A stretch of 63,441 nucleotides of DNA from an uncultured Eubacteriales bacterium (lineage in GTDB: Bacteria; Bacillota; Clostridia; Peptostreptococcales; Anaerovoracaceae), in assembly GCA_902795265.1 (NCBI GenBank), contig CADBKM010000005.1:1-63441 (forward strand), in the 5' to 3' direction. This document shows, piece by piece, positions 1-23,209 of this stretch. The notes under the pieces are model-generated. The model was given only the letters and a program-made list of their open reading frames with translations. It did no database searches and had not been told where the DNA came from. Position numbers and translations under genes: made by a program. Position 1 is the first letter of the stretch. Every line of letters begins with the position of its first letter.

Positions 1-403
1 CCTCACGGAAATCACAGCCGTCAGGCAATACACCTTCACTTTCCGGCACTCCTTTTGTATTGCCTCACGGGAATCACAACCGTCAGGCAATACACCTTCA
101 CATTCCAACATCCATTTTGTATTGCCTCACGGGAATCACAACCGTCAGGCAATACACCTTCACTTTCCGGCACTCCTTTTGTATTGCCTCACGGGAATTA
201 CAGCCGTCAGGCAATACACCTTCACATTCCAACATCCATTTTGTATTGCCTCACGGGAATCACAGCCGTCAGGCAATACACCTTCACTTTCCGGCGCTCC
301 TTTTGTATTGCCTCACGGGAATTACAGCCGTCAGGCAATACACCTTCACTCTCCGGCGCTCCTTTTGTATTGCCTCACGGGAATTACAGCCGTCAGGCAA
401 TAC
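1..403. repeat. Tandem array of a 62-bp palindrome-containing unit (cut by left edge)
   Basis: The block CCTCACGG recurs at 1, 63, 125, 187, 249, 311 and 373, an exact 62-bp period. Each unit has a 37-bp imperfect palindrome (arms GTATTGCCT...AGGCAATAC, extended by ACGG/CCGT after one mismatch) and a 25-bp linker. Linkers come in two kinds, one with TTCCGGC and one with TTCCAAC, in the order A,B,A,B,A,A, so a 124-bp higher-order period is also visible. The last palindrome ends at 403. The unit has no stop in any plus-strand frame, so the open frames across it are by-products of the repeat. Function is unknown; it resembles a REP/VNTR-type hairpin repeat. Confidence 0.93.
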
Positions 404-439
404 ATTGTCCATAAAAAAGATAATACGCATAGTTGTACA

Positions 440-482
440 GCAGAATACCGAATTATCGGTATGGTCCGATCTATACATCGGT
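440..482. other. Two small inverted repeats after the repeat array
   Basis: ATACCGA-atta-TCGGTAT at 445-462 and CCGAT-ctatac-ATCGG at about 466-481 form two adjacent short stem-loops between the array and the terminator at 501-530. No T-run follows. They may be part of the array's flank or protein-binding sites; nothing else is seen between 404 and 500. Confidence 0.35.
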
Positions 483-500
483 CAATTATATTTTCCAAAA

Positions 501-530
501 AAAGAATTCTCCGGGCATTTTAGCCCGGAG
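501..530 (-). terminator. Rho-independent terminator of the PTS-type gene
   Basis: On the minus strand an 8-bp G+C-rich stem (CTCCGGGC/GCCCGGAG, loop TAAAAT) is followed by AATTCTTTTTTT. It lies about 115 bp past the stop of the gene at 644-1738. The stretch 531-643 contains no convincing gene. Confidence 0.8.
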
Positions 531-643
531 ATATGAAGATGATGCATTCATATTATCCGAATGAGAATTTTTCACATACAGGATGCTGCAGTCTGCTTCC
601 CCCTGCTTTTTCCTGGAGCACGGGGAACTTCTAATGATAATTG

Positions 644-1738
644 CTAAAGTGTCAGGTCGCCGTCCTTTACCCAACCGAGCTTGCGGCAGCCCATGTTGAT
701 CAGCGGTGCCAGTATTGCAGGGAGCACGAAGCTGATAAGAATGAGTCCTGCCCAGTCCATTCCGGTAATAGCCGCTTTAGCTCCGGATGCCACGTCGTTG
801 ACCCAGCCTGAATATACGCCGATCTGTCCGACGAGTCCGCATGTACCCATGCCGCTCGATACAGGCGCTCCGTTCATCTGGAGCTTGAACAGGCATGTAG
901 CGATCGGGCCTGTGATAGCCGAAGTGAGTGTAGGAGCGATCCAGATACGCGGGTTCTTAACGATATTGCCCATCTGGAGCATCGATGTTCCGATTCCCTG
1001 GCTGATGAGGCCGCCCCACTTGTTTTCAGGGAACGACATGACCGCAAAACCGACCATCTGAGCACAGCAGCCTGCAACAGCAGCTCCGCCTGCAAGGCCT
1101 ACGAGTCCGAATGCAGCGCAGATAGCAGCTGATGAGATCGGCAGTGTAAGTGCCATTCCGACTACGACTGATACGATGATTCCCATCAGGAACGGTCTGA
1201 GCTCAGTTGCCCACATTATGAGGTTTCCGACCTTCATCGCAGCGGCTCCGAGTCCCGGTGCCCACCAGGCTGAGAGCGCAACGCCCACGCCTATGGTCAC
1301 GAGAGGTACCACGAGTATGTCGACTTTAGTCTCACCGGCAACTGCCTTGCCGCATTCAGCAGCTATGATTGCAACGATCAGGACTGCGAGCGGTCCGCCG
1401 GCTCCTCCGAGGCCGTTAGCTGCGAAGCCTACCGTAGCCAGAGAGAACAGTACCAGGTTAGGACTCTTCAGCGCATAGCCTATCGCTATCGCCATAGCCG
1501 GTCCTGTCATCGCGACAGCCAGTCCTCCGACTGTGTAATCGGCCCCGCCTATTGTGCAGACCGGGTTTGTCAGAAATCCGATGCCGAACTGTGTTCCTAT
1601 TGTATTTATGATAGTGCCGATCAGCAGCGAGCAGAACAGGCCCTGTGCCATTGCCGAAAGAGCATCTATGCCATAACGTTTTGCGCTTATCTCTATGTTT
1701 TTGCGTTCGAGGAACGCTTTTACAGAACCCTTTGTCAT
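644..1738 (-). CDS. PTS-type sugar transporter subunit IIC (PF13303-like membrane protein)
   Basis: A 364-residue, very hydrophobic and glycine-rich protein with about nine membrane segments and a short basic N-terminus (residues 1-25). Its overall make-up matches the stand-alone EIIC-like family (PTS_EIIC_2). Members carry only the membrane channel and usually lack linked EIIA/EIIB genes, as here, so the substrate cannot be named. The ATG has an AGGAG site 5-6 nt upstream. It is a single-gene unit, divergent from mltG and ended by the hairpin at 501-530. The family call rests on sequence character rather than a catalytic motif; another multi-pass transporter is a less likely alternative. Confidence 0.75.
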   Translation of the reverse strand: MTKGSVKAFLERKNIEISAKRYGIDALSAMAQGLFCSLLIGTIINTIGTQFGIGFLTNPVCTIGGADYTVGGLAVAMTGPAMAIAIGYALKSPNLVLFSLATVGFAANGLGGAGGPLAVLIVAIIAAECGKAVAGETKVDILVVPLVTIGVGVALSAWWAPGLGAAAMKVGNLIMWATELRPFLMGIIVSVVVGMALTLPISSAAICAAFGLVGLAGGAAVAGCCAQMVGFAVMSFPENKWGGLISQGIGTSMLQMGNIVKNPRIWIAPTLTSAITGPIATCLFKLQMNGAPVSSGMGTCGLVGQIGVYSGWVNDVASGAKAAITGMDWAGLILISFVLPAILAPLINMGCRKLGWVKDGDLTL

Positions 1739-15864: not shown

Positions 15865-16224
15865 CTATGAATTCTGTCCCTTTTCTGCCATCTCCTGGCT
15901 AATTCCCGGGTTCCAGACACAGCAGACAGCTGCAGGCTTTATGCCGTCGAGCTCGAATTTCTCGATCCATGGGTATTTCTCATACCGGATCGCTGCGTTT
16001 TCTTCGAGCAAAACCCCGTGAAGAGGCACATAAACAGCGCCTATCTGGGATTCCTCGCGCAGATAATCGGAGGCGTACTCCTCCGGGTCTTTGTCGGTAA
16101 AACTTACCGATACCTCCGCTTTGGAGGGATCGCATCATGTGCGCGCGGTATCGGTCAGGAGCACGATGTCCTTGAACCCGAGCCGGCCCATGTATTCTAT
16201 AGCGTTGTCGTTGAGTCTTATCAT
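15865..16224 (-). CDS. Candidate selenoprotein with in-frame UGA (Sec30-Cys31), HesB-like small protein
   Basis: A 119-codon frame from ATG 16224-16222 to TAG 15867-15865, interrupted only by TGA at 16137-16135 (codon 30). Read as selenocysteine it gives ...TDTART-U-C-DPSKAEV..., a Sec-Cys redox pair, and 89 more coherent codons ending with a Cys-Cys-containing tail (AAVCCVWNP). The ATG overlaps the proX stop (ATGA), a normal coupled start. Directly after the UGA is a 25-nt stem-loop (16108-16132). From memory, the pattern (short N-terminal helix, beta strand, UC at about 30, later VYVP) resembles small HesB-like selenoproteins. Alternatives: a nonsense-disrupted gene or a sequencing error. 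The selenium genes at 21543-23183 favour Sec. Confidence 0.72.
16108..16132 (-). promoter_or_regulatory. SECIS-like stem-loop directly downstream of in-frame UGA
   Basis: On the minus strand, starting 2 nt after the UGA: CGAT-c-CCTCC, loop AAAGC, GGAGG-t-ATCG. Nine base pairs with one mismatch. Position and size suit a bacterial SECIS, but the loop has its G at position 4 rather than in the first two places of the usual pattern, so the assignment is tentative. Confidence 0.5.
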
Positions 16225-16709
16225 AGTTTGACGAAGTGGAGTTCGTTGCCGTGTTTTTTGATCAGCTTTACGACATCGCGGGCATTAATGTATACAGTCG
16301 CGGTGTTGTCACAAGGATGTATGCCCATGAGCTTGTTCTCAAAGTCTTTGTCCATGAAGACTACTACGTCCTTTTCTTCGTTGGCGAGGATTCCCAGCGG
16401 GGTCACCGCTCCGCGGATCAGCCCCATCTTGGCCATCAGGTCTTCTTCGGAAGCAAAGGTGAGCGGACGCGTATCCTGTGCTTTTCTGAATTCTTTCAGA
16501 TTCACCTTTTTATCTTCAAGGCAGGTGATGAGATAGTATTTGCGCTTTTTGTCATCGCGGATAAACAGGTTTTTAGCGATCTGATCAGGATGCGGAAGGT
16601 TGCACTCGAGCATCTCATCTATTGTATAGACCGGCTTGTGCTCTACTATCTCATATTTGATCTTATTATCATCGAGGATCTTTACGATATCTTCTTTTGT
16701 AAGTGTCAT
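16221..16709 (-). CDS. proX: Prolyl-tRNA deacylase / editing protein (ProX, YbaK domain)
   Basis: A 162-residue stand-alone YbaK-type editing domain. It hydrolyses mischarged Ala-tRNA(Pro) (or Cys-tRNA(Pro)) in the cytosol. The family features are visible: the N-terminal EHKPVYTIDEM segment, the conserved catalytic-site Lys in DQIAKNLF, RGAVTPLGI and GIHPCDNTATV. It lies 15 bp downstream of the HerA-like gene, and its TGA overlaps the ATG of the candidate selenoprotein gene by 4 bp, so all three probably share a transcript. Confidence 0.92.
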   Translation of the reverse strand: MTLTKEDIVKILDDNKIKYEIVEHKPVYTIDEMLECNLPHPDQIAKNLFIRDDKKRKYYLITCLEDKKVNLKEFRKAQDTRPLTFASEEDLMAKMGLIRGAVTPLGILANEEKDVVVFMDKDFENKLMGIHPCDNTATVYINARDVVKLIKKHGNELHFVKL

Positions 16710-21542: not shown

Positions 21543-21791
21543 CTACAGGTTATCTGCCTTATATATCTGAGTGTAGCTGCCGTCATCGTTGCAAATGACC
21601 ATCTGCTCCATCTCATCGTGTGCAGGGTCAAAAAGAGGCTCTTCGGCACTGTACTTTACACAGGTGCCGCAGCTACTGCTCAGACTTCTCGGAACAGGCA
21701 TCGTGCGCGCCTCAAGCCCCTTCGACTTGCACAGACGCTCAAACCTGATCGATCCAAAATGCATAAAAAAAGTTGCTATGTAAGTATTCAT
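21543..21791 (-). CDS. DUF3343 protein, putative Se/S carrier-like
   Basis: An 82-residue protein whose start (FERLC..KG...MPVPRSLSSSCGTC) is the DUF3343 signature. The CxxC pair is C41/C44. The family is found next to selenium-handling genes and is thought to carry selenium or sulfur, fitting the yedE-yedF neighbours upstream. It is separated from yedF by a terminator. A TGC-TATAAT sequence ends only six bases before the ATG and no ribosome site is visible, so it may be translated from a leaderless mRNA. Confidence 0.88.
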   Translation of the reverse strand: MNTYIATFFMHFGSIRFERLCKSKGLEARTMPVPRSLSSSCGTCVKYSAEEPLFDPAHDEMEQMVICNDDGSYTQIYKADNL

Positions 21792-21797
21792 GCGGTT

Positions 21798-21806
21798 ATT
21801 ATAGCA
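21798..21806 (-). promoter_or_regulatory. Extended -10 element immediately upstream of DUF3343 ATG
   Basis: TGC-TATAAT on the minus strand (21806-21798) with six bases (AACCGC) before the ATG. Transcription would begin at or next to the start codon. The -35 region would fall in the terminator stem at 21821-21833 and is not a good match. Confidence 0.5.
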
Positions 21807-21820
21807 GATTTAAGAAATAA

Positions 21821-21861
21821 AATGCGGGTGAGTTTCTCCGGAGAAGAGACTCACCCGCATT
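21821..21861 (-). terminator. Terminator/hairpin after the yedE-yedF pair
   Basis: AATGCGGGTGAGT pairs with ACTCACCCGCATT (13 bp, perfect) across a 15-nt loop that itself contains CTCCGGAG. On the minus strand it is followed by A/T-rich sequence (TTATTTCTTAAATC), a moderate U-tract. Confidence 0.75.
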
Positions 21862-21875
21862 GGTATTTAAATCTC

Positions 21876-22076
21876 TTATCTGGATATCTTGAGCAGGTAT
21901 TCACCGCCCCGATCTTCCACTTCTACGTTGTAGCCCTGGCTCTTTGCAAAACGTGTCACGTTTTCGAGTGGAGCCTGAGCGTCTACCATTACTTCATAGT
22001 AGTCTTCTTTACTCTTCATTGCCTTCTGCGTCATGATCACAGGCATCGGGCATGACAGTCCTCTTGCGTCTACCAT
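21876..22076 (-). CDS. yedF: TusA/YedF-like sulfurtransferase (SirA-like)
   Basis: A 66-residue protein of the SirA/TusA fold. The N-terminal DARGLSCPMPV contains the catalytic Cys9 in CPxP, which carries persulfide or perselenide sulfur/selenium. Placed 18 bp downstream of yedE, it corresponds to the N-terminal half of YedF of selenium-using bacteria; the longer DsrE-like C-terminal half is missing here. The likely role is passing selenium (or sulfur) imported by YedE to downstream enzymes, which is inference from context. Confidence 0.9.
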   Translation of the reverse strand: MVDARGLSCPMPVIMTQKAMKSKEDYYEVMVDAQAPLENVTRFAKSQGYNVEVEDRGGEYLLKISR

Positions 22077-22094
22077 GATATACCTCCGTATAAG

Positions 22095-23183
22095 CTATGC
22101 TGCTTCCTTTGCAGGAGCTTTCTCTTTGACGTATGTGTTGACTACACCGATGAGAGCAACAACAACGATTCCGATGATAACAGCGACCTTTCCTGCAGGT
22201 GTAGGGCCTTCGCCGCTGGAAGCGAGTCCGAAGTTGTGGCAGAAAGCTGCTCCCACAAGGAGTCCGAGAACTGTTACAGCGCTGTCAGCATTACCTTCAC
22301 CGGACATGATCAGCTGTCTGAGCGGGCATCCGCCGAGCAGTACGCATGCAAATCCGACGAGGAGCATGCCGAGGCAGTTCCAGAGGCCGTCAGTGTGTGC
22401 AACAGGCTGTTCAGCAAATCCGAACTTGAATCCGCCAAGTACGAGATTTGTGATCAGTGCAGCAACGAGGATAGCGATGAATCCCCAGAGGAGTCTTGTC
22501 TCTTTGAAGAGAACGAGGTCTCTCATTCCGCCGACCATGCACAGTCTTGTTCTCTGTGCGAGAACGCCGACGACGAGTCCTGCAGCAAGAGAAATGCCTA
22601 CAGCTGCGTGCATTGCTCCCGGGCCTGCTCCTTCTTCGGAGAAGAGGATGAATGCAGGCTTGATGAGAAGAAGTGCGAAAATAACGACTTCGATGATAGG
22701 CATCCAATATCCTTCACCTGCAGTCAGGCTGTATGTTCTCTTGAGCGAATATCCATTCTTGAGGAAGAAGATTCCGCAGAAGATTCCGATCACGAATCCG
22801 ACGAGTCCGAAAATAGCGTTCATGTCTCCGCCTGCCAGTCTCAGGATCATTCTGAACGGGCAGCCGAGGAACATAAGGCAGCCTACCATTGCGAAGAATC
22901 CGAGTACGAATCTTGTCATAGGAGCGCTGCCGCCCTTCGAACTGAATTCTTTCTTTGCGAATGCTGCGCAGAAAGAACCGATAACGATTCCGATGATCTC
23001 TGGTCTGATGTACTGTACCGGAGGTGCCTTGTGAAGTCCGAGGCCGCCTGCTGTATCACGGATGAAGCATGCGATGCAGAATCCCATGTTCTTCGGGTTT
23101 CCGAGGAAGGCAAGACCGGCTGCGATGACACCTATCACGAGACCCGCGATGATGATCATTAGCTTGTCATTTTTCTTTTCCAT
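22095..23183 (-). CDS. yedE: Selenium metabolism membrane protein YedE (YeeE/YedE family)
   Basis: A 362-residue membrane protein with about ten helices. It has the paired Cys-containing pore motifs of the YeeE/YedE transporters (FLGCPFRM and LLGGCPLRQ), plus GFCIACF and the VQYIRPEIIG segment typical of the selenium-linked YedE group. It is thought to import a selenium or thiosulfate-type compound and hand it to the TusA-like partner encoded next. An upstream in-frame ATG exists at 23207, but the ATG at 23183 has GGAGG seven bases before it and is preferred. A structured leader lies at 23210-23254. Confidence 0.92.
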   Translation of the reverse strand: MEKKNDKLMIIIAGLVIGVIAAGLAFLGNPKNMGFCIACFIRDTAGGLGLHKAPPVQYIRPEIIGIVIGSFCAAFAKKEFSSKGGSAPMTRFVLGFFAMVGCLMFLGCPFRMILRLAGGDMNAIFGLVGFVIGIFCGIFFLKNGYSLKRTYSLTAGEGYWMPIIEVVIFALLLIKPAFILFSEEGAGPGAMHAAVGISLAAGLVVGVLAQRTRLCMVGGMRDLVLFKETRLLWGFIAILVAALITNLVLGGFKFGFAEQPVAHTDGLWNCLGMLLVGFACVLLGGCPLRQLIMSGEGNADSAVTVLGLLVGAAFCHNFGLASSGEGPTPAGKVAVIIGIVVVALIGVVNTYVKEKAPAKEAA

Positions 23184-23209
23184 TTTTAAACCTCCATATA
23201 ATTCCATAT

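Follow-up and report, generated by a model that had tools for sequence, protein, structure and literature searches.

Three cysteines ligate the cluster in the A-type Fe-S carriers IscA and SufA, the last two of them within a C-terminal CxC. Small selenocysteine (Sec) proteins, including some with adjacent Sec-Cys (UC) pairs, form an already known superfamily, with curated models for the HesB-like selenoproteins (TIGR01911), for which Table 1 of PMC13188914 gives the motif UxGP, and for the CC/Se motif selenoproteins (NF041239). For the SECIS hairpin of bacteria (bSECIS), section 5 of PMC13188914 gives a model with a spacing and loop rule and an energy limit of −7.5 kcal/mol. The locus described here lies in a stretch of 63,441 nucleotides (the window) and is very probably a selenoprotein gene with its UGA codon 30 decoded as Sec. 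Our overall reading, to which we give a probability of roughly 0.8, combines this recoding with a HesB/IscA-fold product, membership of a divergent CC/Se branch and a Sec-Cys pair that acts as a ligand or redox pair.

The gene occupies positions 15865 to 16224 of the minus strand and consists of 119 codons and a TAG stop (15867-15865), starting with ATG at 16224-16222 and interrupted by one internal TGA (codon 30, 16137-16135), which is followed by TGC, encoding Cys, at codon 31. The product would thus have 119 residues, with Sec30-Cys31 and a Cys101-Cys102 pair (15919-15924, minus strand) at its C-terminal end. The ATG overlaps, as ATGA, the TGA stop of the upstream ProX/YbaK-like tRNA-editing-domain gene (16221-16709, minus strand; PF04073, E 6.8e-26). 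The single TGA at codon 30, the Cys directly after it and the start coupled to a proX-like gene had all been pointed out in a preliminary description of this DNA, and each was confirmed. The same description held that codon use resembles that of the neighbouring genes; after the TGA, the mean log-odds is gene-like (+0.12) and above that of the other five frames, the plus frames having been scored across the whole stretch rather than from the TGA onward, but it is lower than in nine neighbouring genes (+0.35 to +0.62). The selenium genes previously placed about 6 kb away were found at a distance of 5-6 kb and comprise a putative selenium transporter of the YedE type (22095-23207, minus strand; TIGR04112, 519.4 bits against a cut-off of 200) and a Se/S carrier-like gene (21543-21791, minus strand; PF11823). 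The two adjoin each other (21543-23207) and form a small selenium gene pair.

The source genome of the window contig (1.95 Mb in 70 contigs, 86% complete) encodes the full Sec machinery, for which a search had been proposed earlier. The selB gene (376.9 bits, cut-off 242), selA and the gene for tRNA-Sec (anticodon UCA) stand side by side on one contig (G000:C29), and a Sec-type selD is located on contig C51 (L053, about 233-1174, minus strand) with an in-frame TGA of its own. As the TGA falls within the N-terminal GGUGAK stretch, selD is itself a selenoprotein gene. Among 47 genomes of the genus, selB scores above the cut-off in 42 and tRNA-Sec matches are present in 43 by raw count, although G030 and G027 each contribute a single match of 85 nt and about 49 bits that is probably not tRNA-Sec. 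Three genomes (G018, G030, and G037) are without accepted selB or tRNA-Sec, and the selenoprotein gene is absent from all of them, whereas it is present in 38 of the remaining 44 (table 38/6/0/3, p 0.0052), a test that is weakened by incomplete assemblies. Counting the weak G030 match as tRNA-Sec changes the table to 38/7/0/2 (p 0.033), and before the strong tRNA-Sec matches of G012 (at a contig end) and G019 were included, it had been 37/5/1/4 (p 0.0032). Six Sec-competent genomes of the 44 are without the gene, which is therefore dispensable, or else their assemblies are incomplete. In G016, G019, G020, G039, G043, and others, tRNA-Sec was strongly matched twice, either on separate contigs or at distant sites of one contig, which reflects a second copy or an assembly effect.

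Searches of 148 relatives with the protein returned matches in 41 genomes, and a profile (A2) built from 28 of the 39 family members, picked for spread, returned 40, which comprise 38 genomes out of the 47 in this genus, G078 from another genus of the family and a distant match in G054. The 18 named copies of the gene are assigned to Mogibacterium sp. (8) or to uncultured Clostridiales/Clostridia, several of them from the guts of sheep, goats and horses. Profile A2 matched none of 398 genomes sampled across the phylum beyond the source genome itself, and no relative of the selenoprotein was found among the plasmid sequences, viral contigs or PDB sequences searched (best E in the latter, 0.46). 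Among the genomes searched, the family is thus confined to one genus (named Mogibacterium in several records) and one genome of a neighbouring genus. Three matches were not counted as members: that of G139 (E 0.0086) contains four internal stops and was taken as noise; that of G077 (E 0.0089) belongs to the CC/Se type, with E 1e-6 to NF041239 though short of that model's cut-off; and that of G054 (E 4e-5; L106) carries a Cys-Sec pair and was treated as a bridge. In the latter two (L106:1656-1976, plus strand, in G054, and L072 in G077:C171) the order of the pair is reversed, and these distant relatives fall between the CC/Se motif family and the new one. Loci L031-L048 duplicate others already counted and were not counted again, and L069 (G031), which is broken by N and TAA, was left out of profile A2 and kept in the DNA alignment A3.

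All 39 loci (38 genomes of the genus and G078) carry TGA at the same codon, followed by a Cys codon, and chance can be excluded because of this constancy; the Sec-Cys pair is likewise invariant in the 28 rows of the protein alignment. Homologues with either Sec or Cys at this site had been anticipated, and those with TGA were found throughout, but no form with Cys in place of Sec exists among the 39 members. Computed over 14 short forms, the dN/dS ratio amounts to 0.063 upstream of the UGA. Downstream it is 0.053 for codons +15 to +68 and 0.077 for the entire stretch. In the same 14 copies, codons +1 to +14 show a drop in pS from 0.70 to 0.26. Several findings thereby uphold the selenoprotein status put forward in the preliminary description: the UGA is conserved, selection downstream of it is purifying, a SECIS-like hairpin covaries and the Sec machinery is complete.

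Two hairpins follow the UGA. The strong hairpin noticed earlier, CCUCC/GGAGG (16113-16127, minus strand), is indeed present and also kept, but its register shifts by one base in the long forms, and in the window copy neither of the first two loop positions is G. The likely SECIS candidate is instead the second hairpin (16092-16112, minus strand) and not the one previously proposed at 16108-16137. In the window copy it reads UCGGUAA-GUU-UUACCGA (16094-16110), with 7 contiguous pairs against 9 in the family consensus and 7-9 bp being typical, and this is the hairpin that is conserved and covaries. The 3-nt apical loop starts 31 nt after the UGA in 39 of 39 copies and always has G first (GUU in 37, GCU and GGU in 1 each). 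Pairing is retained in 98.5% of 342 cells, and 5 of the 9 pairs show two-sided changes, which amount to 14 cells compared with 2.4 in shuffles; none of 500 shuffles reached the covariation score, and pairing falls to 23-58% of cells once the partner is shifted by 1-3 bases. Synonymous codons under the stem are frozen, with Ser as TCG in 33 of 35 copies and as AGT in 36 of 37, Val as GTA in 34 and GTG in 5 of the 39, and Phe as TTT in 34 and TTC in 5; most upstream codons use several synonyms, with the exception of Glu at −20 (GAA in 27 of 27). Spacing and loop of the hairpin agree with the bSECIS rule set out in section 5 of PMC13188914. When the 21 nt are folded in isolation, 33 of the 39 copies are at or below the −7.5 kcal/mol given there, the window copy being at −6.7. 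Folded to minimum energy, the 57 nt downstream of the UGA in the window copy reach −15.1 kcal/mol but adopt a different structure, one that favours an extended first hairpin. The protein motif VSVSFTD and the SECIS candidate share the same codons, which makes this a clear case of one stretch of sequence carrying both.

Family members come in two architectures. The short forms (18 of 39; L001-L018) have about 107-119 residues, and 17 of them end in Cys-Cys and a few further residues, a pair found in 0 of the 21 other loci. The long forms (also 18; L019-L030, L063-L065, L067, L068, and L070) have about 210-270 residues, although L068 is truncated at the end of its contig. L066 and L071 are also short but lack the Cys-Cys pair, and L069 is broken. 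The extra C-terminal domain of the long forms matches DUF7674 (PF24722) above the cut-off in L021 and G045 (the genome of L026), weakly in L046, L048, and G040, and not in L044 or L019. DUF7674 was considered as a standalone protein in short-form genomes and rejected, the search giving four matches in three genomes of the genus, three of them inside fused genes. The gene order HerA-like, ProX-like, selenoprotein, Na/Ala symporter is kept in L001-L014, with a symporter that often shares no more than 56-64% identity with the window's own; of the remaining short forms, L015 has retained the ProX-like gene and L016 the HerA-like gene, while L017 and L018 have neither. Neighbours of the long forms were scanned at three of four loci with frames listed. 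Genes for a glycerol-3-phosphate dehydrogenase and a histidine phosphatase lie upstream and an ABC ATPase gene downstream in L044 and L046, a phosphotransferase-like gene lies upstream of L045, and the next gene in L044, L045, and L046 is YcxB-like, above the cut-off in L046 alone. As the neighbours differ across members, the coupling to proX is a local feature and not a functional rule.

The window protein had no match in Pfam or NCBIfam and none to the NF041239 model even at E 10, its curated cut-off of 40 bits not being reached. The model weakly matched 4 of 32 members (best E 0.0062) and gave 14.4 bits to L071, the most divergent of the family. Aligned by hhalign to a comparison set of 25 CC/Se proteins, collected from relatives and all above the NF041239 cut-off, the new family reached a probability of 97.7% (E 2.2e-12, score 66.8); the alignment spans 94 columns and brings the Cys/Sec pairs into register. 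Scores did not exceed 18.2 in 100 column shuffles and were 14.5 with a reversed profile, and without L071 the value was still 97.3%. The HesB-like set derives from 30 loci (L076-L105) found with TIGR01911, only 4 of them above its cut-off, of which 25 were used after removal of L092 and L095 (no frame) and L099, L102, and L105 (close to others kept). The CC/Se set matched this set at 95.7%, whereas the new family matched it directly at 5.1% (E 0.008, score 19.6; reversed, 16.1) and at 0.8% with another alignment. TIGR01911 (cut-off 66.35 bits) matched neither the window protein nor any other protein of its genome, and at E 0.01 it matched 0 of the 47 genomes of the genus compared with 56 of the 148 relatives. 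HesB-like selenoproteins of this type thus seem to be missing where the new family occurs. The tree unites the new family with a support of 100/100 at the end of a branch measuring 2.8 changes per column, and its nesting inside the CC/Se set is weakly supported, the columns being few and the branches long. Collectively, the profile comparison points to the new family as a very divergent, lineage-restricted branch of the CC/Se motif selenoproteins.

AlphaFold2 modelled the core with a pLDDT of 90.7 and a pTM of 0.81 as one helix followed by six strands, and the Cys-Cys tail poorly, with a pLDDT of about 50. When the core model was compared with the PDB by Foldseek, the first six places were taken by Escherichia coli IscA, IscA with [2Fe-2S] and SufA (probability 1.00, TM 0.57-0.60, E 3.6e-3 to 1.6e-2), followed by three more chains, which we take to be HesB-type, before the probability dropped to 0.06. 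With the full-length model, the top nine chains were unchanged (TM 0.39-0.55 by query length), and neither model had a match at E 0.001, the best values being 2.6e-3 to 3.6e-3. The fold is thus predicted to be HesB/IscA-like, and in the model the Sec-Cys pair would lie between the first two long strands, at the place of the first ligand Cys of HesB/IscA, with a register certain to within one residue. The protein had been called HesB-like in the preliminary description, and this stands as regards the predicted fold and remote homology through the CC/Se motif family, but not as membership of TIGR01911, given the lack of a match to that model and the low direct hhalign value.

How the gene is read is the first matter on which alternatives have to be weighed. 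If the TGA were a nonsense mutation or a sequencing error that splits an ordinary gene, a truncated frame would be expected, and a plain gene caller would see one in this fragmented and incomplete assembly (70 contigs, 86% complete). However, the TGA stands at the same codon in all 39 loci, each from a different genome, which contradicts the sequencing error considered earlier, and dN/dS is about 0.05-0.08 on both sides, so that a pseudogene or error has next to no probability. Readthrough without Sec, with another amino acid inserted or a leaky stop giving a 29-residue peptide beside the longer product, is likewise very improbable. Sec incorporation at codon 30 is a prediction from sequence, but the overlapping upstream gene ends in TGA, as many relatives apparently do. 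In addition, the genome has the Sec machinery, the hairpin covaries and agrees with the bSECIS rule in section 5 of PMC13188914, and searches did not find the gene in the three genomes of the genus without accepted Sec machinery. We therefore favour decoding of UGA codon 30 by SelB and tRNA-Sec, which would be directed by the hairpin with the GUU loop 31 nt downstream and would yield a small HesB/IscA-fold protein whose Sec30-Cys31 pair occupies the loop joining the first two long strands.

The computations support the recoding signature, the fold and the remote homology; as for the biochemical role, we infer that Sec30-Cys31 most likely binds a thiophilic metal, an Fe-S cluster or persulfide/selenide, or forms a selenenylsulfide redox couple, and that in the short forms the C-terminal Cys-Cys may supply further ligands or resolving thiols. 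A narrower version, in which the protein is purely a thiol/selenol oxidoreductase working through a Sec30-Cys31 selenenylsulfide and the HesB fold is a mere scaffold, is possible but doubtful. The Sec-Cys pair is invariant (28 of 28 rows) and the 25 CC/Se relatives include 11 UC, 6 CU, and 3 CC pairs, as such a role would suggest, but adjacent pairs suit metal binding too, and Foldseek points to IscA/SufA, including one structure determined with [2Fe-2S], rather than to redoxins. Somewhat less likely still is a new type of metal, cluster or selenide carrier, a Sec-dependent HesB-fold protein that would combine Sec-Cys with Cys-Cys or with the helical DUF7674-like domain; such a carrier may fail with Cys alone because no Cys form occurs among the 39 members. 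The proximity of the YedE-type and Se/S carrier-like genes, 5-6 kb away, and the presence of Sec in every member could also suggest selenium delivery or storage by a small Se carrier that feeds SelD. We consider this improbable, as ProX-like, HerA-like, and M16C peptidase genes stand between, a Sec protein donating selenium for Sec synthesis would be circular, 6 of the 44 Sec-competent genomes of the genus are without the gene, and the neighbourhood differs in the long forms examined. The reading that we prefer thus remains that of a HesB/IscA-fold selenoprotein whose Sec-Cys pair may serve as either a ligand or a redox pair.

No description of the family was found among the literature matches listed, in Table 1 of PMC13188914 or in passages of PMC1794560 and PMC11097638, and none of the curated models tried covers it. 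The gene would be cut short by standard annotation and lies outside all curated models tried, yet it is kept, together with UGA, Cys and the SECIS-like hairpin, across a gut-bacterial genus, and the HesB/CC-Se selenoprotein superfamily gains with it a branch too divergent for existing models. The two architectures and the natural absences make the family a good system in which to test why some lineages insist on Sec in a HesB-like fold. It is nevertheless a branch of a known superfamily of small Sec proteins, and 11 of the 25 CC/Se proteins likewise carry UC pairs.

Among the described systems, IscA and SufA are the best structural matches of both predicted models, at 11-17% identity, with the Sec-Cys pair where these carriers have a single Cys. 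Their three ligand cysteines have no full counterpart in the new family, which has UC in the loop and no C-terminal CxC, a CC tail being present in 17 of the 39 members and absent from 22. The HesB-like selenoproteins of TIGR01911 share the fold class, the overall layout and the placement of Sec/Cys in the same loop, but where Table 1 of PMC13188914 lists UxGP for them, 37 of the 39 members of the new family have UCxP and the other two UCTG and UCDS. The CC/Se motif family bridges the two. Its members are likewise small, carry an adjacent Cys/Sec pair, in 11 of 25 as UC as in the new family, and match the new family over the full length of the profile. By contrast, the motifs VSVSFTD and RYE-x-x-PW, the C-terminal CC and the fused domain set the new family apart from NF041239 (Moor_selen_rel), none of them occurring in the 25 CC/Se rows.
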